Shown: positions 5,691 to 46,343 of the stretch, piece after piece | Layout of the letters: the number at the start of each line of letters is the position of its first letter | How positions within the stretch are numbered: position 1 is the first letter of the stretch | Source: Leptothrix sp. (in: b-proteobacteria) | GTDB taxonomy: Bacteria > Pseudomonadota > Gammaproteobacteria > Burkholderiales > Burkholderiaceae_C | Direction: 5' to 3' | Assembly: GCA_013822265.1 (NCBI GenBank) | Contig: PNKD01000016.1 | Coordinates: 1 to 48,995 of the forward strand | DNA length: 48,995 nt | Notes under the pieces: model-generated | What the model saw: only the letters and a program-made list of their open reading frames with translations | Databases searched by the model: none | What the model was told of the DNA's origin: nothing | Made by a program: the position numbers and the translations under genes

Positions 5691-8100
5691 AAACGGGTGC
5701 AGGGGGCCGGTCGGCGGCGGGTGACGCTCCACCACGCTCTTCGCGCAGCAGGCGGTAACCGGGGATATTGTCCTTCAAGACCCTGAGCGGGTTGGAGCCG
5801 AGGCGTGACAGGCCCACCAGCTCCAGCTGCAGCATCAACCGCGTGGTGGCTTCGCTGCGGCCCGTGGACAGCCGCTCGGCGACGAAGCGGCCGATCCAGC
5901 AGCCCGCGTCGTACTCCAGGCCGAGCACCGAGTCGGTGATGCGGCTGTCCTTCAGGCTGTAGTTGACACGGCCTACCGAGTACCAGCGGCCCCGGCAGCT
6001 GTTGTCGTCGCGCTGGGTCGAACCTGCCGAGCGTGTCGCAGAGGCCGCGCCGTAGATCGGCCACTGCCAGCCCAGTTCGACCTGCTCGTTGCGCCCGCGC
6101 GCCAGGCGGTAGGTGGCGCTGAGCGTGCGGAACGGGCCCGGCGCGTAGCGCGCGCCGATGATCGAGCGCACCGAGCGCCGCAGGTCGGTGCTGTACTGCA
6201 TCGCGGCGTCCAGCGTCCAGGCGGGAAAGACGCTGGTGCTGCCCAGCAGCAGGGCGTCGGACAAGCGCTGCTCCAGCGGCGCGCCGTCGACCGTGCCATC
6301 GGCATTGGCCGTGACGCGTTGGCCGCGGAACAGCACGCGCTGCACCAGCCCGAGGCGCAGCATCTCGGCGCCGCTGCGGCTGTCGACGAAGCGTGTCGTC
6401 ACGCCGGCGGTGAGCTGGTTCGCGTCGTTGACGCGGTCGACGCCCGAGAACTGGTTGTCGGTGTAGATCGATATGAAGTTGAAGTCCTTGGCCGCCGCGT
6501 CGTAGTTCGGCAGCTGGCTCTGCGCCCGGTAGGGCGTGCGCACGTAGAGCAGCCGCGGCTCCAGCGTCTGCCGCAGCTCGCGGCCGAAGGCCCGGGCCGG
6601 GCGCTCGAGTTCGAGGCCCGCGTCGAGGCTGAAGGTGGGGATGACGCGCTGCGCCTGCTGGCCTTGCTGGCGGTAGGCGGCGGCGTTGAGGCTCATGCGC
6701 GGCACCAGCCAGCCGCCGGGCTGGCGCCACGGGTGGCTGACATGGCCCAGCAGGTGCAGGCGCTCGCCATCCACGCGGCCGGCACGCGCCTCGGTGCCGC
6801 CCGGCAGCGTGAAGCGGTTGTATTCGGTCTGGACGGCGTACTGCCAGCCGCTGCGCTCGCCACCCAGGCGCATGCCGACCTGCGGCGTGCGCTCGTAGGG
6901 GGAGACGACGATCTGGTCACTGCCCTGCAGCACCTGCCATTTCAGCGCGCGGGCGTAGAACAGGCCTTCGCCCCGCGCGGCGGTGAACGGGTGCTCGACA
7001 GCCAGGCGCAGCGGCAGCAGCCGCGGCGTGAGGCTGCGCCCGGCATTCGGGAAGTCCTTCCACCACTCGTCGTCCGAGACCCGCACCAGCTCGGCGCGGT
7101 AGCGCGTGCCGCTGCCGAACTGGCCCAGCTGCGACCACTGCAGCGCTTCGCGCGACCGTTTGGCCAGACGGTCGTCGGGCAGCCAGTCCAGCGCCACTGC
7201 CCCCTCGTAGGCGGGCTGCAGGTAGCGGAACTCGCTGTCGAGCCCGAAGCCGCGGCGCGTGATGACGCGCGGCGTCAGCGTTGCGTCGCGCTGCGGCGCG
7301 ATGTTCCAGTACCAGGGCATCGAGAGTTCGATGCCGCTGCGGTTGTCGGTGTTGAACGACGGCGGCAACCACCCCGACTTGCGGGCGTCGGACAGCGGAA
7401 AGCTCAACGCCGGCAGCGCCAGGATGGGCACGCCCAGGAAGCGCAGCACCGCGCCTTCCGCCAGGCCCTCGTTGCGCTCGAGGTCGAGGCTGACGCTGTC
7501 GGTGCGCAGCAGCCAGGCCGGCTCTTCGGGGCCGTCGCGCGGGCAGCTGGTGTACTCGGCGCGCGTCGCCCGGGAGCGGGCGCTGTCGAGGAAGTCCAGG
7601 CGCTCGGCGCGCCCGCCCGCGCCGAGCTCGAAGAACTCGAATCGCGGCTCCAGGAAGAAGCCCTCGAAGCGCTGCACCTGCAGTTGCAGCTGCGGGCCGG
7701 TGTAGCGCGCCGCGCCTCGGGTGATGCTGACGCTGCCGCTGGCGGTGGCGAGATCCTGCGCGGCGTCGTAGGCCAGGCGGTCGGCCTTGACGACGGTGTT
7801 GCCGCGGCGGAACTCGACGTGGCCTTCGGCCAGCGTCTCCAGATCGGGCTGGCTGCGCAGGCGGTCGGCCTGCAGCACGGCGGGCAGCTGGCGCGAAGAC
7901 TCGCCGCGGGGCAGCGGTTGCAGGCTGCGGCTGGGCTGCAGCGCGGGCGCCGACGCCGCGACGCTGGCGGCCGCGGGCTGCGCGCGTACTGCGGCCGCGC
8001 CGGCCAGCAGGCCTGCCGCCAGGGCCAGCGGGGTGATTCGCATCGGAAACAAGGGCGGTCTGCGACGCCGACGGGGCGAGGGCGGATTCGTAGAATTCAT
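5683..8100 (-). CDS. lptD: LPS-assembly outer-membrane protein LptD
   Basis: Outer-membrane beta-barrel that, with LptE, inserts lipopolysaccharide into the outer leaflet. A signal peptide (MRITPLALAAGLLAGAAAVR, cleaved after AQ) precedes an LptA-like domain (LQADRLRSQPDLETLAEGHV, KADRLAYDA, SGSVSITRGAARYTG) and a large barrel (PLSDARKSGWLPPSFNTDNR region onward). Cysteines sit at YTSCPRDG on the N-terminal side and at NSCRGRWY and DAGCWIG near the C-terminus, consistent with the inter-domain disulfide of LptD. Two starts are possible: ATG 8100 (805 residues, Arg-rich leader) or ATG 8043 directly before the signal peptide; neither has a good ribosome-binding site. It heads the lptD-surA-ksgA operon. 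Confidence 0.94.
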   Translation of the reverse strand: MNSTNPPSPRRRRRPPLFPMRITPLALAAGLLAGAAAVRAQPAAASVAASAPALQPSRSLQPLPRGESSRQLPAVLQADRLRSQPDLETLAEGHVEFRRGNTVVKADRLAYDAAQDLATASGSVSITRGAARYTGPQLQLQVQRFEGFFLEPRFEFFELGAGGRAERLDFLDSARSRATRAEYTSCPRDGPEEPAWLLRTDSVSLDLERNEGLAEGAVLRFLGVPILALPALSFPLSDARKSGWLPPSFNTDNRSGIELSMPWYWNIAPQRDATLTPRVITRRGFGLDSEFRYLQPAYEGAVALDWLPDDRLAKRSREALQWSQLGQFGSGTRYRAELVRVSDDEWWKDFPNAGRSLTPRLLPLRLAVEHPFTAARGEGLFYARALKWQVLQGSDQIVVSPYERTPQVGMRLGGERSGWQYAVQTEYNRFTLPGGTEARAGRVDGERLHLLGHVSHPWRQPGGWLVPRMSLNAAAYRQQGQQAQRVIPTFSLDAGLELERPARAFGRELRQTLEPRLLYVRTPYRAQSQLPNYDAAAKDFNFISIYTDNQFSGVDRVNDANQLTAGVTTRFVDSRSGAEMLRLGLVQRVLFRGQRVTANADGTVDGAPLEQRLSDALLLGSTSVFPAWTLDAAMQYSTDLRRSVRSIIGARYAPGPFRTLSATYRLARGRNEQVELGWQWPIYGAASATRSAGSTQRDDNSCRGRWYSVGRVNYSLKDSRITDSVLGLEYDAGCWIGRFVAERLSTGRSEATTRLMLQLELVGLSRLGSNPLRVLKDNIPGYRLLREERGGASPAADRPPAPVYD

Positions 8101-8987: not shown

Positions 8988-10856
<1,869 letters not shown>

Positions 10857-10899: not shown

Positions 10900-11556
10900 A
10901 TGGAATACGCCGCCTTCCTCATCGACTTCATCCTGCATGTCGACCGCCACCTGTCCGAGTTCGTCACGGCCTACGGCGCCTGGGTCTACGCGCTGCTGTT
11001 CCTGATCATCTTCGTCGAGACCGGGTTGGTGGTGATGCCCTTCCTGCCCGGCGATTCATTGCTCTTCGTGGTCGGCGCGCTGTGCGGCGTGGGGCTGATG
11101 AGCCTGCCGCTGGCGATGCTGCTGCTCACCGTGGCGGCGATCCTGGGCGACCAGACGAACTACTCGGTAGGCCGCTACTTCGGCCCCAAGGTCTTCGGCT
11201 GGCAGAACTCGCGCTGGTTCAACCGCGACGCCTTCGACCGCACGCACGCGTTCTACGAGGAGTACGGCGGCATCACCATCGTGATCGCGCGCTTCATGCC
11301 CTTCCTGCGCACCTTCGCGCCCTTCGTCGCCGGCGTGGCCGAGATGACGCGCAGCAAGTTCACGGCCTACAACGTCGGTGGTGCCGTGCTCTGGGTGTGC
11401 GGCGTTTCGCTGGCCGGCTACCTGTTCGGCAACCTGCCCTGGGTGCAGAAGAACCTGTCGATGATCATCTGGGCCATGATCCTGGTGCCCGGCCTGATCG
11501 TGCTGTTCGGCGCCTGGAAGGCCGGCCGCCAGAAGGCATCGCGCCGCGCGGCCTGA
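10900..11556 (+). CDS. DedA-family inner-membrane protein
   Basis: Members of the DedA family are multi-pass inner-membrane proteins linked to membrane lipid (undecaprenyl phosphate or phospholipid) translocation and to maintenance of proton motive force. The 218-residue product shows the family hallmarks in order: FVETGLVVMPFLPGDSLLF near residue 38, GDQTNYSVGRYFG near 88, and RFMPFLRTFAPFVAG near 131, plus terminal hydrophobic helices (WAMILVPGLIVLFGAW) and a basic tail. It is closest to the YqjA/YghB type by these motifs. It lies just after the ABC exporter and converges with the M20 dipeptidase, leaving only 18 bp between stops. Confidence 0.92.
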   Translation: MEYAAFLIDFILHVDRHLSEFVTAYGAWVYALLFLIIFVETGLVVMPFLPGDSLLFVVGALCGVGLMSLPLAMLLLTVAAILGDQTNYSVGRYFGPKVFGWQNSRWFNRDAFDRTHAFYEEYGGITIVIARFMPFLRTFAPFVAGVAEMTRSKFTAYNVGGAVLWVCGVSLAGYLFGNLPWVQKNLSMIIWAMILVPGLIVLFGAWKAGRQKASRRAA

Positions 11557-37394: not shown

Positions 37395-37562
37395 GTCAAC
37401 GCGGCGGGGGCATGACCTGACGGTCGTGATGGGGTTCACGAAGCGGGCGGGGTGACGGGCCGGCCGGGTCGCAAAAGCGTCACCTTGCCTTGCCGGGCGG
37501 CCCCGGCGCGATCAGCATCCGCGTCTCTCCCGCCCTTCGGCGGACCTTTGGCCCGCCATCCC

Positions 37563-38342
37563 ATGCAGATTCGCGTTCTCGGCTGTTCCGGTTCCATCGC
37601 CGCGGGCAACCGAACCACTTCCTTCCTGCTCGACCACGACGTGCTCATCGATGCCGGCACCGGCGTCGGCGACCTCACGCTGGACGAAATGGTGGCCATC
37701 GACCACATCCTGGTCACCCACTCGCATCTCGACCACGTGCTGTCCATCGGGCTGCTGGCCGACAGCGTGACACGCCGCCGCCGCGCCGCCGCGCGGCCCC
37801 CGGTGGTGATCCATGCGCTGCCCGCCACCATCGCGGCGCTGCGGCTGCACGTCTTCAACGGCGTCATCTGGCCCGACTTCTCCCGCCTGCCCGACATCCA
37901 CAACCCGGTGCTGCGATTCGAGCCCGTCGAGGTCGGGCAGGTGCTGGCGCTGGGCGCGCGGCGCATCGAGGTGCTGCCCGCCAGCCACACCGTGCCGGCG
38001 GTCGGTTATGCCGTGCTCGGGGGGCAGGGCGCCTGGGTGTTCACCGGCGACACGGGGCCCAACACGGCACTCTGGCAGCGCCTGCAGGATCTGCCGGTCG
38101 CGGCCCTGGTCATCGAGACAGCCTTCCGTGACGACGAGCACGCGCTGGCCACCATCAGCCAGCATCTTTGCCCGTCGCAGCTGCAGCAGCAGCTGGCGCG
38201 GCTGCAGGCGCCGGCCGATGTCTTCATCACCCACATCAAGCCGGGTGAGGTCGAGACCGTGATGGCCGAGATCGGTGCCCAGGTCACCCGGCACCGCATC
38301 GCGGCGCTGCGTACCGGGCAGGTGATGACGCTGGCCGATTGA
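37563..38342 (+). CDS. Metallo-beta-lactamase-fold hydrolase, class II cyclic-nucleotide-phosphodiesterase-like
   Basis: The 259-residue protein begins [20 protein letters not shown] and has the di-metal motif [10 protein letters not shown] (H-x-H-x-D-H), a later His in [10 protein letters not shown], the bridging Asp in FTGDTGPN and a final His in FITHIKPGE. The [10 protein letters not shown]...G-x-x-T-S-F-L-L start resembles the class II 3',5'-cyclic-nucleotide phosphodiesterase group, so cleavage of a phosphodiester is likely, but the true substrate is not known. It lies 225 bp after the FHA gene on the same strand; in related genomes I recall such a hydrolase near this signalling set, so it may take part in the same pathway. 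Confidence 0.85.
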
Positions 38343-38533: not shown

Positions 38534-38995
38534 ATGAAGCGCGTTCAACAAGGTTTCACCCTCATCGAACTGATGATCGTCGTGGCGATCATCGGCATCC
38601 TGGCTGCCGTGGCGCTGCCGGCATATCAGGACTACACAAAGCGCGCGAAGATGTCCGAAGTGGTCTTGGCCGCATCCGCTTGCCGCACGACCATCACGGA
38701 GGTCTACCAGTCGGCGACTTCGTCGGTGCCGACCGCCGGCAACTGGGGCTGTGAGAGCGCTTCGCCGTCCAGCAAGTACGTGAACAGCATCGCGACGAGC
38801 AACACGGGTGTCATTACCGTGACCCCGCAGAACTTGAGTGGCGTCACCACAACCGTCGTGCTGACGCCTTACTCGAACGACACCACCGCCATGGCCGGAG
38901 ACGCCGATGCCGGCAAGGCCGTGTTCAAGTGGATCTGCGCACCCGGAACCCCCGCCCAGGCCAAGTTCTTGCCGGGTTCGTGCCGCGGCAGCTAA
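38534..38995 (+). CDS. pilA: Type IV major pilin
   Basis: Structural subunit of type IVa pili. The 153-residue prepilin has a short basic leader MKRVQQG, cleaved by PilD before [20 protein letters not shown], with the conserved Glu at mature position 5 and a hydrophobic N-terminal helix. The C-terminal globular part has four cysteines: one at SACRTT and one at NWGCES in the alpha/beta-loop side, and two in WICAPG and GSCRGS, which form the typical C-terminal disulfide (D-region). Ser/Thr-rich stretches ([21 protein letters not shown]) offer possible O-glycosylation sites, relevant because an oligosaccharyltransferase follows. AGGAG (38521-38525) precedes the ATG. Confidence 0.95.
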
Positions 38996-39113: not shown

Positions 39114-40880
39114 ATGACGAGCGGCCCTCAAACGGCAGCAGGACACTCGACAGGTTCCCTGACCGATCTTCCCCTGTCCGGCGTAGTGCTGGCGACCCTG
39201 CCGCTGGCCTGGTTGCTCCCCAACCATTACTACCCGTGGTCGTCGGCATGGCAGGACGCCATGGCGTTGTTCATGCTGGTGACTGCGGCGTTGATCCATC
39301 GCCGCGCCGTGCGGCTGCCGGCACCTTGGGGCCTGGCGATCGGCGTGGCACTGCTGTCGATCGCAGTGCAGTGGCTGACCGGTTTGATTCTGTTCGGCGG
39401 CGATGCGCTGATGGCGATGCTGTATCTGGCGGCGTTGACGCTGGCGCTGGCGATGGGAGCGTCGTTGGTCGACGAAGTGAGGCCAGGGCAGATCGGCTCG
39501 CTCGACGCCTTCGCAGTGGGGATGGTCCTGTGTGCCGTCTTATCTGTCGCCACTGCGCTCGTGCAATGGACGGCGACCTATGCGTTGGGCATCTACGTAG
39601 CCGATCTTCCGCCCGGCGCGCGTCCGTTCGGCAATGTGGGGCAGGCCAACCAGTTGTGCACGCTGCTGTTCCTAGGGCTGTGCGGCCTCGGTCTTCTGCG
39701 CGAGGGCGGGCGCATTGGCGCCGCCGGCTTCTGGCTGGGGGCGTGCTTCTTGATCTTTGGCATGGCCATGACGGCCTCACGTACCGGCTGGCTGCAAGTA
39801 GGCCTGCTGGTGCTCCTGGTCTCGGTCCATCAGTGGCGCTCCGCCTCGCGCGTAAAGCCCTGGCATACGCTGGGTCTCGCGATCATCTTTGTCGGTATGA
39901 CGGTGTCGTGGCCATGGCTGAACGAATCGCTACTTCTGGTCGGTGGGCGCAGCGTTGTGTCTGGCCTGGATGGTGGTTCACGCGTGCCGCTATGGTGGGC
40001 GATGGTCGATGCGCTTTGGCGTGAACCGTGGACAGGGTATGGCTGGCAGCAGATCATCGTGGCGCAGCAGGCCGTGGCCAGCGATCACCCCTTCATCGGC
40101 TACCCCTTCGAGCACAGCCACAACGTCGTGCTGGACTTGTTGCTGTGGGCGGGCATTCCACTTGGTGTATTGATCGTGGCCCTGGTCGGTAGCGCGTTGC
40201 TGCGCCAGGTCAGAAAAGCGCGAGACGTCCGGGTCACTTGGTTGATGGCGGGAATTGGTGGTGTGGTGGCACACGCCATGGTTGAACTGCCCCATGAGTA
40301 CGCCTATCTGTTGTTGCCGATGGGGCTTGCCGCCGGTGCGGCCCATGCCCTTTCCCCGGCGGGGCGCAGTTGGGCCGTTCCCGTCCCGCTATTGCGTTTC
40401 GCCGCCGCGACAATGGCTCTGTTGCTCGGCGCCGTGGGCGCTGAGTACCTGCGGGCCGAGCAGGCATACCGTCTGATGCGGTTGGAGGCGGCGAAAATTG
40501 GTGTCTATGGTCTTACTACGCCGCCGCCTGAGCTGCCACTTCTGACGCAACTGGGAGCCTTCATGCGCTTCGTGCACTCGGAAGCTCGGCCAAACATGAC
40601 CCCGGCCGAACTAGCGTCCATGCGTGAGGTTTCAGCGCGCTTCGCCTATCCCCCGGTCATGTTTCGGTACGCGCTCGCGGCGGGCCTCAACGGCCAGCCG
40701 GCCGAGGCCGAAACCACCCTCGTTCGCCTTTGCCGCATGCAGCGGCCCGAGCGCTGCTCCGAGGCACGCGAAGGCTGGCAGGCGGCACGAAGCCGGTATC
40801 GCCAACTGGCAGCACTCGCCTTTCCGGAATCGTCAATCCGCACTCCAGACAGTGCACTCGCGCCGCAGCCTGCGCATTGA
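39114..40880 (+). CDS. O-oligosaccharyltransferase/O-antigen-ligase family protein, PglL-like
   Basis: Multi-pass inner-membrane enzyme that transfers a lipid-linked glycan to protein (pilin) or lipid A. The 588-residue product has about a dozen hydrophobic helices. The PglL_A-type signature FGNVGQANQLCTLLFLGLCG lies in the first half, followed by MTASRTGWLQV, then the Wzy_C region with the conserved periplasmic loop FEHSHNVVLDLLLWAGIPLG. The C-terminal ~150 residues are a soluble periplasmic part. Placement 118 bp after the pilA stop strongly suggests a pilin-glycosylating enzyme (TfpO/PglL type). Codon choice looks slightly less GC-rich than in neighbours. The start ATG has no strong ribosome-binding site. 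Confidence 0.88.
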   Translation: MTSGPQTAAGHSTGSLTDLPLSGVVLATLPLAWLLPNHYYPWSSAWQDAMALFMLVTAALIHRRAVRLPAPWGLAIGVALLSIAVQWLTGLILFGGDALMAMLYLAALTLALAMGASLVDEVRPGQIGSLDAFAVGMVLCAVLSVATALVQWTATYALGIYVADLPPGARPFGNVGQANQLCTLLFLGLCGLGLLREGGRIGAAGFWLGACFLIFGMAMTASRTGWLQVGLLVLLVSVHQWRSASRVKPWHTLGLAIIFVGMTVSWPWLNESLLLVGGRSVVSGLDGGSRVPLWWAMVDALWREPWTGYGWQQIIVAQQAVASDHPFIGYPFEHSHNVVLDLLLWAGIPLGVLIVALVGSALLRQVRKARDVRVTWLMAGIGGVVAHAMVELPHEYAYLLLPMGLAAGAAHALSPAGRSWAVPVPLLRFAAATMALLLGAVGAEYLRAEQAYRLMRLEAAKIGVYGLTTPPPELPLLTQLGAFMRFVHSEARPNMTPAELASMREVSARFAYPPVMFRYALAAGLNGQPAEAETTLVRLCRMQRPERCSEAREGWQAARSRYRQLAALAFPESSIRTPDSALAPQPAH

Positions 40881-40984
40881 GCGCGCGACGAGCGCTGCCG
40901 CGTTGGCGGTACGCGTAAGGGTGAGACGCCGCGATTTATCGATGTCCCGTCGTCAGACTCTCTTTGGCTGTTGGCTACCGACGG

Positions 40985-41422
40985 CCGGAGTTCAGTCGGA
41001 GGGCGCTGCGCACTGAACTGCGCGACTTCCCTATCTATGACTGGCGCGGGCATACGGCCCGGTTGGCGGCGCGCGGGTTGATCGGTGCCGGTACGGTGAG
41101 GGCTATCGCGCGGCCGCGGTGGTTCGGGTGCAGTCTACAGCCCACCCTGACCTTCACGCGGACAGACTCAGTCCACCTACCCAGGTGCGTAGACTCGGAG
41201 TTGTCTTGGCACATGCCTACGACATACTGCCGATGGCTTCCCCGTCCCTTGCCAGTGGCGAAGTGCCCGCACCGTTCTGGGAAGTCGAAGTGCCCTTGCT
41301 CGCCGCATCCCGGGCTGCCAGCAGAGCGGCCCTGAACTTCCGGCCCGACGCCGCAAGTCAGGCACGTATCTCGCCGAGCCTTCATGCATGCGACGGAACC
41401 GGAGCAACGCTTGAACGGGGCT
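40985..41422 (+). pseudogene. Decayed 3' part of a hipA/yjjJ-like gene (fossil 1)
   Basis: Two reading frames together resemble the C-terminal third of the intact YjjJ-like protein downstream. The first gives DWRGHTARLAARGLIGAGTV and RPRWFG (intact: DWRQHAARLVARGLIDARTV, RLWWFG). The second gives LAHAYDILPMASPSLASGEV, PAPFWEVEVPLLAA and DAASQARISPS (intact: LAPAYDMLPMAFTPLPGGEV, PEPRWNFELPLPAE, DAAGDARISPG). A frameshift separates them, and the segment where the intact protein has the catalytic NNDMHLGN is destroyed. No start is present. Similarity extends to about the position of the intact stop codon. This is a non-functional remnant. The 40881-40984 stretch before it shows nothing I can place. 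Confidence 0.8.
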
Positions 41423-41460
41423 CGCAACCGGGGGCCTGACGGTTATGCAGTACGTCCTAG

Positions 41461-41690
41461 CCGGCACACAATGCGCGCCACCCATGCCGAATAGCGCACC
41501 CATCTCGCTTTCCCAGCGCCCGTTGTCCGACTCCCGCACCCCAATCGCGGTTGCCGCGGCGGCCGTGCCCTCCCTCCTCACCTGTAACCTCAGCCCTACC
41601 CCAGCTACCTCAACCATGCTCTGGTCTTCGCCGTCTGGGCCGGCTTCGTGATGGTCTCGCTGCCGGCCCACCCTGGCCGCCGCCCGTGGA
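41461..41690 (+). pseudogene. Decayed 5' end of a PglL/Wzy-type ligase gene (fossil 2)
   Basis: This DNA aligns with 43966-44195, the beginning of the intact second ligase gene: GGCACACAATGCGC, then CCAGCGCC[C/T]GTTGTCCGAC, then a 36-bp identical block (41634-41669 versus 44139-44174) that encodes WAGFVMVSLPA. Between these, substitutions and small indels break the frame. The similarity stops shortly after the identical block, so only about 230 bp of the gene remain. It directly follows fossil 1 with roughly 40 bp between them. Confidence 0.85.
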
Positions 41691-41694
41691 CCGT

Positions 41695-41800
41695 GTGAAC
41701 GCCGGTGTCGCAGGCATCTCGCCGGACTGCCGTGCCTTGGCCACGGCACTGAGGCGGCAGCCTGCGCTGGCGCCGAAGCGACCGCAGAAGTCCCTGTAAA
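41695..41800 (+). pseudogene. Possible second hipA/yjjJ 3'-end fragment (fossil 3)
   Basis: One frame reads NAGVAGISPDCRALATALRR before a stop at 41797-41799, resembling the extreme C-terminus of the intact protein (DAAGDARISPGFRARAAELG). At DNA level CATCTCGCCGG is shared exactly, with scattered matches after it. It is short, so this call is tentative. If right, it is the tail of another hipA-like copy joined directly to the ligase fossil by deletion. Confidence 0.4.
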
Positions 41801-41836
41801 TCTCGCCATAAATCTCGCCATAATTGGCGATGGTTC
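41797..41836 (+). promoter_or_regulatory. Putative operator of the yjjJ-like gene
   Basis: TAAATCTCGCCA occurs twice in tandem (41797-41808 and 41809-41820). The second copy is followed by TAATTGGCGA, forming the inverted repeat TCGCCA-TAAT-TGGCGA (41815-41830), which ends at the ATG start. Such a site over the start codon suits autoregulation by the winged-helix N-terminal domain of the YjjJ protein (inference). A related AATCTCGCCA recurs inside the gene near 41926. Confidence 0.45.
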
Positions 41837-43212
41837 GCCCCGTCAACACCGCTGCAAGGAACGCTATACAAAGGGAACTTTGCAGGGGGCCCCGCGGTGC
41901 CACCGGCCTGGCCGCAGCGCTGAAAATCTCGCCACGAACAACGCTGCGCCTGCTCGCCGAGCTGGGTGACGCCACCGTTTCGTCGGGCCAGGCGCAGCGC
42001 CGCCGCTACGCCGCACGCCGGCCCTTGCGTGGTGTGGCTGAGGCCCTGCCGGTGTTCGCGCTCGATGAGGCAGGGCGGGTCACCGAGGCCGCGGCCTTGC
42101 ACCCCATCCAGCCGCAGGGTTGCCTGTTTCCGCTGCCTGCGCTGGGTTGGCCCGTCGATGACGACAGCCGCGACGGCTGGTGGGGCGGCCTGCCCTACCC
42201 GCTGTACGACATGCAGCCGCAAGGCTTCCTGGGCCGGGCTTTCGCGCGCGCCAGCCATGCCGATCTGGAAGTGCCAGCCGACCCCGACGAGTGGGGCGAT
42301 GACGACGTGCTGCACGTGCTGGCGCGGCGCGGCGAAGACTGCAGCGGGCACCTGATCGTTGGCGCCGCCTCGCTGCGCCGGCACCAGCAGCAGCGCTTGC
42401 AGGCGTCCGAGCCCCTGGTCGAGGCCCAAATCGCGCCCGCGTATGTCGCGGCTGCCACACTGGCCGCGTCCCAGGGCCTTGCCGGCAGCTCTGCCGGCGG
42501 CGCATTCCCGAAGTTCACGGCCCGCCGCGCCCTGGCCGGTGCCGCCACCGCCGAGGTGATCGTCAAGTTCTCGGGTGTCGCGAATGCGCCCGCGACGCGG
42601 CGCTGGGCCGACCTGCTGGTCTGCGAACACCTGGCCTTGCAGCGTGTGCAAGCCCTCGGTGCGTCGGGCGCTGCGGCCACACGTCTGGTGCAGGCCGGCG
42701 GGCGAACCTTTCTGGAGTCAGAGCGCTTCGACCGCGTCGGCGCCTGGGGCCGGCGTCCGCTGGTCAGCCTGCGGGCACTGAGCGGTCACTTGCTGGGCCT
42801 GTCCAGCCAGGACTGGCGGCAACATGCGGCCCGGCTGGTGGCGCGCGGGCTGATCGATGCGCGCACGGTGGACGACATCACGCGGCTGTGGTGGTTCGGC
42901 CGGCTGATCGCGAACAACGACATGCACCTGGGCAATCTCAGTTTTCACCCGCAGGCAGGGCGCCTGCGGCTGGCGCCTGCCTACGACATGCTGCCCATGG
43001 CCTTCACGCCCTTGCCCGGTGGCGAAGTACCTGAGCCGCGATGGAACTTCGAACTGCCCCTACCTGCCGAGCGCGCCGCATGGCTGGCGGCCGGCGATGC
43101 GGCAATGGCGTTCTGGGCCGACGCCGCCGGTGATGCGCGCATCTCGCCGGGCTTTCGCGCTCGGGCCGCCGAACTCGGGCAGCTGCTGAACGTGTCGCGC
43201 AAGCAGGCGTGA
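41830..43212 (+). CDS. yjjJ: HipA-family serine/threonine kinase, YjjJ type, with N-terminal winged-helix domain
   Basis: HipA-like kinases phosphorylate components such as aminoacyl-tRNA synthetases and can arrest growth; YjjJ is the orphan type with its own DNA-binding domain in place of a separate HipB. In the 460-residue product the N-terminal ~65 residues form a helix-turn-helix/wing (GATGLAAALKISPRTTLRLL, GQAQRRRYAARRPL). The kinase core follows: SSAGGAFPKFTA (flexible P-loop), AEVIVKFSG (ATP-binding Lys), LESERFDRVG, catalytic ANNDMHLGNLSF, and PAYDMLPM replacing the DFG-type motif. Catalytic Asp and metal-binding Asn/Asp appear intact. ATG 41830 or TTG 41824 may be used. No hipB gene is adjacent. 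Fragments of related genes lie just upstream. Confidence 0.88.
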   Translation: MVRPVNTAARNAIQRELCRGPRGATGLAAALKISPRTTLRLLAELGDATVSSGQAQRRRYAARRPLRGVAEALPVFALDEAGRVTEAAALHPIQPQGCLFPLPALGWPVDDDSRDGWWGGLPYPLYDMQPQGFLGRAFARASHADLEVPADPDEWGDDDVLHVLARRGEDCSGHLIVGAASLRRHQQQRLQASEPLVEAQIAPAYVAAATLAASQGLAGSSAGGAFPKFTARRALAGAATAEVIVKFSGVANAPATRRWADLLVCEHLALQRVQALGASGAAATRLVQAGGRTFLESERFDRVGAWGRRPLVSLRALSGHLLGLSSQDWRQHAARLVARGLIDARTVDDITRLWWFGRLIANNDMHLGNLSFHPQAGRLRLAPAYDMLPMAFTPLPGGEVPEPRWNFELPLPAERAAWLAAGDAAMAFWADAAGDARISPGFRARAAELGQLLNVSRKQA

Positions 43213-43237
43213 AGCGTGTCCCCCCTGACCAGCCACT

Positions 43238-43621
43238 TCAGGCCGGCACTCCCTTCGCCACGTACCGCACGCCAAGCAGGTTCTCGAAGTCAGCATCCTG
43301 GGTCCACAGCACCGCGTCGAAGTGGCGCGCCGTGGCCAGCATGATGCTGTCGGCCATCGGCAGCTTCAGCTCATGTGAGAGTTTCGCGGCCGACATCGCC
43401 AGCGACTCGTCCAGCACCACCACCCGCCCCAACTGCATCAGCGCCGATGCCTGCAGTGCCGCCGCTTCGTCGCGCTGCGAGAGCACGCGCTTGAAAACTT
43501 CGAATATCGAGATGGCGGGCACGATCAGCGTGTCAGCGTCGGCGAGCGGCTGGGCGAAGAAGTCGACGTTGGTCCCGTTGGCGAAGTACTCCAGCCAGCC
43601 GCTCGAGTCCACCACGTTCAC
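43238..43621 (-). CDS. vapC: PIN-domain ribonuclease toxin, VapC type
   Basis: Mg2+-dependent RNase of a type II toxin-antitoxin pair. The 127-residue protein begins VNVVDSSGWLEYFANGTNVD with the first catalytic Asp, has a middle Glu in AISIFEVFKRVLSQRDEAA, a third acid in LKLPMADSIMLATARHF and a fourth in LWTQDADFENLLGV, the complete PIN tetrad. The GTG start overlaps the antitoxin stop by GTGA. It converges with yjjJ, with 25 bp between the stops. The pair sits between two genes that adjoin in the fossil copy upstream. Confidence 0.92.
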   Translation of the reverse strand: MNVVDSSGWLEYFANGTNVDFFAQPLADADTLIVPAISIFEVFKRVLSQRDEAAALQASALMQLGRVVVLDESLAMSAAKLSHELKLPMADSIMLATARHFDAVLWTQDADFENLLGVRYVAKGVPA

Positions 43622-43824
43622 GTACGGTCGCCTTCGCGCTCGACGCTGCTGTTGATGCCGGTGAGGAAGCCCCGTGCTTGTACCAACGAGCGCACAGGCA
43701 TCAGCTCCACACGATTTCCGTAGCGCATGACATGCAGTTTTTGTCCCGGCTGCAAGTCCATGGCTTCTCGAATTGACTTGGGTATGACGACTTGAAACTT
43801 TGGGGAGACGGAAACGGTTTCCAT
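43618..43824 (-). CDS. vapB: AbrB/MazE-type antitoxin, VapB
   Basis: DNA-binding antitoxin that neutralises the PIN toxin and represses the operon. The 68-residue protein is a swapped-hairpin AbrB domain: METVSVSPKFQVVIPKSIRE, AMDLQPGQKLHVMRYGNRVE, then LMPVRSLVQARGFLTG, a C-terminal helix for toxin binding. ATG 43824 gives the family start. The first codons contain the palindrome GGAAACGGTTTCC (43810-43822), a candidate operator. The upstream ATG 43844 for the opposite-strand ligase lies only 20 bp away, so the promoters of the two genes must be intermixed. Confidence 0.92.
   Translation of the reverse strand: METVSVSPKFQVVIPKSIREAMDLQPGQKLHVMRYGNRVELMPVRSLVQARGFLTGINSSVEREGDRT
43810..43822. 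promoter_or_regulatory. Palindrome at the vapB start, candidate operator
   Basis: GGAAACGGTTTCC, a perfect 6-bp inverted repeat around one central base, lies within the second to fifth codons of vapB. Toxin-antitoxin operators are usually palindromes at or just before the start codon. The AT-rich stretch 43825-43860 next to it probably holds the promoter. Confidence 0.35.
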
Positions 43825-44008
43825 GACGCATGTTTAAGCATCGATGGAAAATCGTAGCACATCTGCCCGATTGGCCGCTGTTGCCGCGGGCACCGCCATA
43901 GACACCCGCCGATCCCGACCATGTCGCGCCCCCCGCCGGGCCAAGCATCGGCCCTGCACGGACCTGGCACACAATGCGCGGCTGCCAAGCCTCTCAACCG
44001 CACCCATC

Positions 44009-45817
44009 TTGCCGCCCCAGCGCCTGTTGTCCGACCCGCGCGCCCTCATCGCGATCGCCGCCGCGGCCGGGCCGTCGCTGCTCGCCTACAACCTCAGCCC
44101 CTCCCCCACCTACCTCAACCAGGCCCTGGCCTTCGCCCTCTGGGCCGGCTTCGTGATGGTCTCGCTGCCGGCCCGACCCGGCCGCGGGCCGTGGGCGGTG
44201 TGGGTGGCGCTGGCCGTGCTGGCTGCCGCTGCACTGTGGTCATGGGGCCCCGGGGCCCTGCCGGCGAGCCTGGCGCTGTCGGCGCTGGGCACGTTGTTCG
44301 CCGCGGCCGTGCTACTGGCCGGCGGCGCCGGCGCGCGTGCGCGGCCCGACGCCGAAGCGCTCTTCATCGCCTTCTGCTGGGCCTGGGTGATCGCCGGCGT
44401 GCTGAACATCGCCGTGGCGCTGGTGCAGGTGTTCTGGCCCGGCCTTCCCGACGGCTCGTGGCTCGCCGCCTCGGGCATCCCGGGCCGCGCGGTGGGCAAC
44501 CTGCGCCAGCCCAACCACCTCAGCAGCCTGCTGCTGTGGCACTGCATCGCCGTCGTCGCCCTGCTGGAACTGGGGCGGCTCAAGCGCGGCGCGGCCGGCA
44601 TGCTGCTGGCGGCCGCCGTGTTCGCCGTGGTGCTGACGGCGTCGCGAACCGGCGTCGTCAGCGTGCTGGTGCTGGCGCTCTGGGGGCTGCTGGACCGGCG
44701 GCTGTCGCGCCCGGCGCGGCTGCTGTTGCTGGCCACGCCGCTGGCCTACCTGCTGTCATGGCTGGCGATGGCGCAATGGGCCGCGCTGACCCAGCACGCC
44801 TTCGGCGGCGCGCAGCGCCTGGCCGAGAGCGACATCAGCAGCTCACGCGTCGCCATCTGGCGCGACACGCTCGCGCTCATCGCGCAGCAGCCCTGGGCGG
44901 GCGTGGGCTTCGGCGAGTTCAACCTCGCCTGGACGTTGACGCCACTGCCGCAGCGGCCGGTGGCCTTCTTCGACCACACCCACAACCTGCCGCTGCAGCT
45001 GGCGGTGGAGCTGGGGCTGCCGCTGGCCGCGCTGGTGATGGGGCTGCTGCTGTGGGCGCTGTGGCGCGGCCTGCGCCTGGCCTGGGCCGCGCCGGCCGGG
45101 TTGGGCGTGGCGCAGCGCAGCGCGATGCTGATGGTGCTGATGATCGGCCTGCACAGCCTGGTGGAGTACCCGCTCTGGTACGGCTACTTCCTGCTGCCGG
45201 CGGCCTGGGCCTGGGGTTTTGCGCTGCAGCCGGCGCCGCAGTCGGCGGCACAGCCGCGGGCAGCCGAGCCCAGCCCGCCGCCGTCCCACGCCGTCGGCGC
45301 GGTGGCCCTGCTGGTGGCCGTGGGGGCGGCGCTGTCGGTGCTGGACTACCTGCGCGTGGCCACCATCTTCGCCGCCACGCCGGGCGCGCCGCCGCTGGAG
45401 CAGCGCATCGCCGAAGGCCAGCGCAGCGTGTTTTTCGCCCACCATGCCGACTACGCCGCCGTGACTTCGGGCCCGTCGCGCCCCGAAGAGGCTCGCGCCT
45501 TCGACCGTGTCACGCACTACCTGCTCGACACGCGGTTGATGATGGCCTGGGCGCAGTCGCTGGCAGCGCGCGGCGAGCTCGACGCGGCGCGCCACGTGGC
45601 GGCGCGCCTGCGCGAGTTCCGCAAGGCCGACGCGGCAGAATTCTTCGCGCCCTGCGAGCCCGGGGGCGGTGGGGGCGCGGCGGCTGCCGCCTCGGGCGTC
45701 TCGGCCGCCGGCACGGCCGCTTCGGCGGCGACACCGCTGCCGGCAGGCCGGCCGTTCCAGTGCGAAGCGCCAGCGCGGGCGCTAGGCTGGCGCGAGTTCG
45801 CCGCCAGCGGCTTCTAG
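44009..45817 (+). CDS. Second O-oligosaccharyltransferase/O-antigen-ligase family protein, PglL/Wzy-like
   Basis: Polytopic inner-membrane glycan transferase, paralogous in fold to the ligase next to pilA. About 600 residues with a dozen hydrophobic helices. Signatures: VGNLRQPNHLSSLLLWHC (PglL-type box), LTASRTGVVSVLVLA, and the Wzy_C loop FFDHTHNLPLQLAVELGLPL. A C-terminal periplasmic region follows and ends in a Gly/Ala-rich stretch. The start is uncertain: TTG 44009 gives a normal N-terminus, while an in-frame ATG at 43844 would add 55 Arg-rich residues and collide with the vapB promoter. A decayed copy of its first ~230 bp is at 41461-41690. It may act on pilin, other proteins or LPS; with no glycan genes nearby this cannot be settled. 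Confidence 0.85.
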   Translation: MPPQRLLSDPRALIAIAAAAGPSLLAYNLSPSPTYLNQALAFALWAGFVMVSLPARPGRGPWAVWVALAVLAAAALWSWGPGALPASLALSALGTLFAAAVLLAGGAGARARPDAEALFIAFCWAWVIAGVLNIAVALVQVFWPGLPDGSWLAASGIPGRAVGNLRQPNHLSSLLLWHCIAVVALLELGRLKRGAAGMLLAAAVFAVVLTASRTGVVSVLVLALWGLLDRRLSRPARLLLLATPLAYLLSWLAMAQWAALTQHAFGGAQRLAESDISSSRVAIWRDTLALIAQQPWAGVGFGEFNLAWTLTPLPQRPVAFFDHTHNLPLQLAVELGLPLAALVMGLLLWALWRGLRLAWAAPAGLGVAQRSAMLMVLMIGLHSLVEYPLWYGYFLLPAAWAWGFALQPAPQSAAQPRAAEPSPPPSHAVGAVALLVAVGAALSVLDYLRVATIFAATPGAPPLEQRIAEGQRSVFFAHHADYAAVTSGPSRPEEARAFDRVTHYLLDTRLMMAWAQSLAARGELDAARHVAARLREFRKADAAEFFAPCEPGGGGGAAAAASGVSAAGTAASAATPLPAGRPFQCEAPARALGWREFAASGF

Positions 45818-45836: not shown

Positions 45837-46343
45837 TCAGGCGGCCGTGTCGGGTCCGGCGTGCCCGGCGTGCCACTCGCCGCTCTTGCCGCCGCGCTTT
45901 TCCAGCACCCGGATGTTGCCCATCACCATGCCGCGGTCGGCGGCCTTGAGCATGTCGTAGACGGTCAGCAGGCCCACCTGCACGGCGGTCAGCGCCTCCA
46001 TCTCGACGCCGGTGCGGCCCAGCGTCTCGACCTGCGCCGTGCAGTGCACGCTGTGCGTGGCCGCGTCGAGTTCGAAGTCCACCGCCACGCGCGTGATGGG
46101 CAGCGGGTGGCACAGCGGGATCAGGTCCGACGTGCGCTTGGCGCCCTGGATGGCGGCGATGCGCGCGATGCCGATGACGTCGCCCTTCTTCGCCGTACCG
46201 CCGGCCACCAGCGCGAAGGTCTCGGGCCGCATGCGGATGCTGCCGCCGGCGCGCGCCACGCGGTGCGTCTCGGCCTTGGCGGCCACGTCGACCATGTGCG
46301 CCTGGCCCTGGGCGTCGAAGTGGGTCAGCGGGGTCGGGTTCAT
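45837..46343 (-). CDS. moaC: Cyclic pyranopterin monophosphate synthase
   Basis: Second step of molybdenum cofactor synthesis, forming cPMP from the MoaA product. In the 168-residue protein: [20 protein letters not shown] at the N-terminus, [36 protein letters not shown] (active-site Lys/His region), [20 protein letters not shown] and [20 protein letters not shown] with the conserved catalytic Asp/Lys area. The length is normal and the ATG at 46343 gives the expected start. It converges with the ligase gene (19 bp between stops) and diverges from the metalloprotease gene; no other Mo-cofactor gene is in the window. Confidence 0.97.

Follow-up and report, generated by a model that had tools for sequence, protein, structure and literature searches.

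Gene layout of the locus

This report concerns a pilin-glycosylation locus of Leptothrix sp. (in: b-proteobacteria), in which the 5′ end of a gene for an O-oligosaccharyltransferase (ligase 2) stands both before and after a 2.3 kb segment carrying a HipA-family kinase gene, yjjJ/hipH, and a VapBC-like toxin-antitoxin (TA) pair. The locus lies on contig PNKD01000016.1 of assembly GCA_013822265.1, and the window is the whole stretch of 48,995 nucleotides that was analysed. From left to right it presents an MBL-fold hydrolase gene, pilA, a first ligase gene (ligase 1), a set of fossil pieces, yjjJ/hipH, the VapBC-like pair on the opposite strand, ligase 2 and moaC. The term block is used for MBL, pilA, ligase 1, ligase 2 and moaC, and the comparison genomes belong to the GTDB genus Rubrivivax.

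Within the segment, the predicted kinase gene is intact (yjjJ_B, 41824..43212, forward strand, start at 41824 or 41830); it scores 461.8 bits against the YjjJ/HipH equivalog profile NCBIfam NF007297, above the cut-off of 401, and also matches HipA_C. Its probable start is overlapped by two ATCTCGCCATAA-like tandem repeats and a perfect inverted repeat (arms of 6 bp, spacer of 4 bp), read by eye at 41800-41830, and these repeats may be a candidate operator for the N-terminal DNA-binding part of YjjJ. On the reverse strand lie a VapC-like PIN-domain toxin gene of uncertain start (43238..43630; PF01850, 49.4 bits, cut-off 23.6) and an AbrB/MazE-type antitoxin gene (43618..43824; PF04014, 31.6 with a cut-off of 24.7; TIGR01439, 49.6 with a cut-off of 28.3). 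Adjacent, on one strand and above their profile cut-offs, the two have the composition of a VapBC pair, and the PIN gene reaches 24 with the NCBIfam equivalog for VapC, under the cut-off of 80. The kinase gene and this pair are the only recognised genes of the insert, which holds no recognised transposase or integrase.

The genes of the block lie on either side. Ligase 2 is intact (43973..45817, forward strand, start uncertain) and of the PglL type, with Wzy_C, Wzy_C_2 and PglL_A above cut-off; the same three families exceed their cut-offs in ligase 1 (39114..40880, forward strand), an O-oligosaccharyltransferase of the PglL/PglS class. To the left are pilA, encoding a type IV pilin (38534..38995, forward strand; Pfam Pilin and N_methyl above cut-off), and the MBL-fold hydrolase gene that forms the conserved left border (37452..38342, forward strand; Pfam Lactamase_B_2, 50.1 bits, cut-off 27). 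The conserved right border is moaC (45837..46343, reverse strand; Pfam MoaC, 189 bits).

Fossil pieces and their age

The direct repeat that brackets the segment has its left, truncated copy at 41463-41715 and its right copy, the 5′ end of the intact ligase 2, at 43966-44214, both on the forward strand. Their local alignment contains 203 identical, 44 mismatched and 8 gap columns (82%) and scores 270.5, the maximum of 300 shuffles being 36. Immediately to the left, at 40978-41432 on the same strand, an older copy of yjjJ/hipH (yjjJ_A) has left its frameshifted 3′ part, which aligns with 42750-43207 of the intact gene over 310 identical, 132 mismatched and 29 gap columns (70%), scoring 201.5 where 300 shuffles reach at most 41. 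A first-pass annotation, made from the sequence alone, had reported a ligase remnant at 41461-41690, a yjjJ remnant at 40985-41422 and a 36-bp identical block (41634-41669 and 44139-44174, forward strand). Both remnants are real, with the limits given above, and the block is exact; the pairwise alignment that had been proposed as a check follows a diagonal far past it.

Where do these pieces come from? Among the yjjJ proteins compared, the one nearest to the yjjJ_A fossil is the intact copy of the window (64.3 bits, the others at most 49.7), and the first-ranked of 68 matches to the ligase fossil is ligase 2 of its own genome. The matches listed for that genome include the fossil pieces and no additional yjjJ copy, and ligase 1 was the sole other match to ligase 2.

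A third piece, at 41700-41761 on the forward strand, is probably another yjjJ tail. It agrees with 43125-43186 at 44 of 62 positions (71%), in frame and near the C-terminal end of YjjJ, and its score of 43 exceeds the maxima of 1000 shuffles each of the yjjJ tail region (34) and of whole yjjJ (40). The tail that the first pass had suspected at 41695-41800 thus survives in part, as a short and weaker match; set against the first yjjJ fossil, it gave nothing over shuffles (21 against 29.5). The stretch 41734-41787, which matches several genomes of the genus, was considered as a mobile piece and rejected; at the eight loci inspected, its matches fall in several frames and strands and in different open reading frames (ORFs), and they are treated as a chance effect of GC-rich DNA.

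The fossil parts are not equally distant from their intact copies: 132 of 442 sites differ in the yjjJ part (30%) and 44 of 247 in the ligase part (18%; p = 5e-4). Because of this inequality, both yjjJ copies were probably already distinct before the ligase head was duplicated, and we favour, from the sequence comparison, a pair of yjjJ copies here that were related but had diverged beforehand, although the unequal divergence could still come from faster evolution of the intact yjjJ. Between its yjjJ part and its ligase part, the fossil has no vapBC. Over 231 sites, with genome G097 as the outgroup, 32 changes are private to the ligase fossil, 4 to the intact copy and 31 to G097; the figures of 32 and 4 indicate that the ligase copy derived from this lineage's own ligase and decayed later. 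Seventeen of the fossil's private changes run from GC to AT and five from AT to GC.

The 36-bp block had been thought to reflect gene conversion. This explanation is unneeded, given the private changes just described and the chance of about 3-8%, in a simple simulation, that an identical run of at least 36 arises at this divergence. In G097, 28 of the 36 positions match. A hairpin with arms 81% complementary is possible at 41636-41670 and 44141-44174; judged by eye, its stem lacks conservation in G097.

Variation of the block in the genus

A ligase match is present in 75 of the 81 genus genomes, some of the matches being weak and ligase-1-like. The surveys of the block cover 68 loci, namely the window and 67 stretches from 66 other genomes (G100 twice), most of them draft assemblies, which is one of the points to be held against the history proposed below. 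MBL lies upstream of ligase 2, the two in order on the available stretch, at 44 of the 68 loci, and several of the remaining loci end at a contig edge.

The first-pass annotation had remarked on turnover beside pilA, and gene content there does change. In Mantel tests over the 20 loci that have the full set of five genes, pilA and ligase 1 are correlated (0.50, p = 0.003), as are MBL and moaC (0.49, p = 0.001), while the values are -0.23 for MBL and ligase 1, -0.07 for MBL and pilA, and 0.12 (p = 0.19) for MBL and ligase 2. Hence pilA and ligase 1 co-vary independently of the flanks, in the manner of a pilin-accessory cassette. The accompanying idea that a HipA-like module is tied to pilin glycosylation found no support: yjjJ matches occur at none of the 67 other mapped pilA/ligase loci, and two of 93 yjjJ neighbourhoods elsewhere (80 plus 13 from other genomes, some of the stretches being short) contain a match, at E<=1e-6, to a pilin or a ligase, so that yjjJ was rejected as a regular partner of the pilin locus. 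The two neighbourhoods are L178 and L245, the match of L178 being to a pilin gene whose surroundings are unrelated.

Other rearrangements were seen in the block. At L113 and L114 (G075 and G093) the pilA-ligase 1 pair stands in reverse orientation between MBL and ligase 2; at L105 (G081) an AAA_14/DUF4143 ATPase gene, at 6358-7545, lies between ligase 1 and ligase 2 and adjoins a short ligase-head repeat; and L129 and L142 (G036 and G014) carry, between pilA and ligase 2, a gene resembling flavin amine oxidases and a large ORF that matches no Pfam family.

The block is enriched in type II TA genes. At 15 of the 68 loci, the gaps hold genes of the PIN, MazE/AbrB, Phd, HicB, PemK, ParE and VapB types, as found by a non-exhaustive combination of Pfam and profile scans in which G003 enters only below cut-off. 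Eight PIN genes exceed the Pfam cut-off in the 396 kb of the block, 0.88 being expected from a genus-wide count of 856, and three PemK genes occur where 0.06 would be expected (genus-wide count 59). A purpose-built PIN profile found seven places in the mapped loci, every one in a block gap; the other 379 kb, for which 0.85 was expected, gave no match. The cargo scan took in 64 of 90 candidate ORFs, spurious-looking ones being partly left out, and these 64 matched 23 Pfam families, none of them a transposase or integrase.

Direct repeats around toxin-antitoxin modules

Repeats of the kind seen in the window recur in the block. In an edge test, MBL tails and ligase-2 heads were compared with the interval between them at the 44 loci where both are in order, and six loci stand out at z 15-78 (the window, G077, G099, G020, G003 and G097), the next reaching 5.1. 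Tests of the gaps gave z >7 in 6 of 132 cases in direct orientation and in none when inverted; the repeat tests cover gaps of up to 3600 bp that no contig end interrupts.

The arrangements differ in cargo and in the gene end that is duplicated. At G077, VapBC lies between MBL and a second MBL tail (169/186 identical positions), and at G097 a PIN gene adjoins a duplicated end of a neighbouring gene (114/168). Ligase-2 heads precede HicB and ligase 2 at G099 (489/626) and, with a borderline z of 5.98, MazE-PIN and ligase 2 at G061 (50/64). G081 has a moaC tail, ParE and moaC (31/33), and also a repeat at its AAA ATPase (38/47). A duplicated end accompanies a weak VapB-like gene, below cut-off, at G003 (40/43), and cargo without a recognised family at G029 (56/74). 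At TA modules the repeats are 33 to about 620 bp long, and at several of those in the block one copy is the end of the intact neighbouring gene and the other a truncated duplicate. Inserts flanked by long direct repeats of their target, of variable length, are therefore found both at the ligase head and elsewhere, and in other species the ends of other genes are duplicated around TA modules without any hipA-ligase unit.

In seven of nine cases, the window included, the truncated copy best matches the gene of its own genome. Mismatches are spread roughly evenly over the three codon positions in the window (11, 14, 19) and in G077 (4, 4, 6); G099 has 66 at third positions against 35 and 26, an excess indicating that divergence took place while this copy was a working allele. 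A repeat at z>6 was found in 6 of 17 gaps with TA genes and in 3 of 42 without a recognised TA (p=0.013), TA status having been set by hand and G061 counted as lacking a repeat.

Beyond the block, a strict rule was used (identity >=78%, length >=33). PIN/PemK modules elsewhere in the genus, an author-chosen sample among the matches listed with several from some genomes, have repeats at 8 of 95 modules with enough flank (99 stretches entered), and none was found at 300 random control positions (p=9e-6) drawn from 13 genus loci and mutually overlapping. Five of the eight inserts measure 669-841 bp, about the size of one TA operon. For HipH genes of other bacteria the count is 4 of 72 loci with enough flank (75 of 80 entered) against 0 of 300 controls, these also from other bacteria (p=0.001), with inserts of 1652-2839 bp. 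At L306, L316, L259, L215 and L236 the 3′ end of a neighbouring ORF holds one of the repeat copies, and at L354 a 5′ end does so; other copies fall in weakly supported ORFs.

Locus L236, from an uncultured betaproteobacterium, has a 50-bp direct repeat (9642-9691 and 11328-11377, 45/50) that brackets a HipH gene. It arose among controls and stands outside the formal HipH test, whose margins missed the repeat. An initial genus-wide test at z>6 had given 5 of 56 TA modules and 2 of 120 controls (p=0.034); both control matches fell at one locus with nearly equal inverted scores, and six of the 120 controls exceeded z 6 when inverted.

A probable insertion scar

What event could have left this pattern? 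It is probable, in our judgement, that the window preserves an insertion scar, a TA segment having entered the 5′ end of ligase 2 and duplicated its head. A segment with yjjJ_B and the VapBC-like pair would have inserted there; some 240 bp of the ligase head would have been duplicated, the right copy becoming the start of the working gene and the left copy (41463-41715) being left over to decay. That left copy would have stayed behind the tail of the older yjjJ_A (40978-41432), the 5′ part of which would have been lost later. The window itself shows the repeats, the decayed left copy and the TA content, and similar structures exist at some other TA modules. The direction of the event is inferred; HipH and VapBC may have arrived jointly or successively, and the mechanism may have been a staggered-break insertion or a one-sided homologous import of closely related DNA. 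Attachment sites of the integrase type are disfavoured: neither an integrase nor a transposase family came up in the scanned cargo, the repeats are of unequal length, and the duplicated gene ends include a 5′ one.

A number of observations weigh against this history. A clean empty site was not seen: G097, nearest to the window by ligase 2, has one ligase-2 head and no yjjJ match, but its ligase 1 is very different (29%). With no such site in evidence, the window is a candidate member of the insertions with long target duplication. A yjjJ tail and the left repeat copy are neighbours, which is what a tandem duplication would produce. Repeats are present without a recognised TA (gaps of G020 and G029; loci L161 and L151), and 87 of the 95 PIN/PemK modules are without a repeat. 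The comparison of gaps is fragile, since counting the weak G003 as no TA changes it to 5 of 16 against 4 of 43 (p=0.05). The strict rule is itself post hoc and needs an independent repeat, having been set after an unfiltered control failed to separate: a replicate without the identity filter gave 3 of 38 TA modules and 17 of 260 controls. Thirteen of these 17 control matches fail the later filter, most having 60-75% identity, and such low-identity matches are probably tandem paralogues; four of the 260 controls pass the strict rule, three at the HipH gene of L236 and one unexplained.

The hypervariability of the region and the repeats at 17 of 260 unfiltered controls speak for another alternative, ordinary unrelated debris in a permissive region, with repeats that are old tandem paralogues or chance. 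It is quite improbable in view of the absence of repeats from 300 controls in each of two fresh strict-rule runs, the block signal above z 7 in direct orientation only, and the position of repeat copies at the ends of neighbouring genes, in the block and in several other cases. The first-pass proposal, a tandem duplication of [yjjJ-ligase 5′ end] whose left copy lost the yjjJ 5′ part and decayed, vapBC entering the right copy later, has three points in its favour: the fossil order of yjjJ tail and ligase head repeats the intact order, the fossil yjjJ is nearest to the intact one, and there is the possible third tail. Its remnants and a duplication are real, but the simple tandem form is unlikely. 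Equal divergence along the unit, which it predicts, was not found (30% against 18%, p = 5e-4), the fossil lacks vapBC, and with only 4 private changes in intact ligase 2 an unusually fast intact yjjJ would be needed; the repeats of other gene ends at other TA modules are left unexplained.

Homology-facilitated illegitimate recombination, in which a fragment joins by homology at one end and illegitimately at the other, is less a competitor than a mechanism for the same structure, and its odds overlap with those of the insertion scar. During DNA uptake, an incoming fragment with TA genes and part of a neighbouring gene would be joined, and the recipient's own gene end would stay as a remnant. 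In G077 and G097 the truncated copy lies ~190-195 bp from pilA, like the intact gene in several loci; the third-position excess in G099 is what divergence as a working allele would produce; and pilA and ligase 1 co-vary separately from the flanks. However, the own gene is usually nearest, and mismatches in the window and G077 are roughly flat over codon positions, so that the donor would have been nearly identical there; this route is possible, if on the doubtful side.

A broader proposal than the insertion scar is offered tentatively, as an idea perhaps a little less likely to be right than wrong: bare type II TA operons, including the single-gene HipH, would be minimal mobile units that need no transposase and, like restriction-modification systems, enter the ends of genes and duplicate a long stretch of the target, with pilin-glycosylation loci as a preferred landing place and TA modules maybe locking cassette exchange. 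Chromosomal TA modules pass from genome to genome although no transposase is visible, and the way in which they do so is an open question. Should the proposal be true, their mobility would become traceable through flanking repeats, TA and restriction-modification systems would have one insertion mode in common, and the fragments of neighbouring genes scattered in the pilin-glycosylation block would be accounted for.

Comparison with known systems

No report of TA insertion with long target duplication was found in searches of an open-licence library, where PMC4450513 and PMC2630997 contain both terms. The kinase gene can be placed more readily. HipH/YjjJ kinases are assigned to Hip clade X in the available parts of PMC8262856 and PMC9948734; the predicted gene of the window resembles the kinases described there in exceeding the YjjJ equivalog cut-off, in its HipA_C domain and in having no HipB-like neighbour, and it differs in adjoining a VapBC-like pair and in lying between ligase-gene repeats.

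The pilin-accessory cassettes of Pseudomonas aeruginosa, as excerpts of PMC11841053 describe them, are alike in that pilA and a downstream accessory gene vary as a unit. Here, in contrast, ligase 1 combines PglL_A with Wzy_C_2, domains assigned to PglL/PglS and not to TfpO in the relevant part of PMC12645811, and TA modules lie at the junctions. Superintegrons stabilised by TA modules, going by the portion of PMC2654758 used, share with this locus the embedding of TA genes in a region of high gene turnover.

A further parallel is the insertion of restriction-modification systems with long target duplication (Nobusato et al. 2000), as presented in sections of PMC3874152, PMC3031569 and PMC1643837. 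The cargo is unlike, here being type II TA genes (HipH/YjjJ, VapBC, ParE, PemK and HicB), and, according to those sections, the restriction-modification insertion emerged from comparing two strains of one species, whereas here the event is deduced across species and with no clean empty site. What the two have in common is a small addiction module, long target direct repeats of variable length (order of 100 bp) and the absence of a known mobile element.

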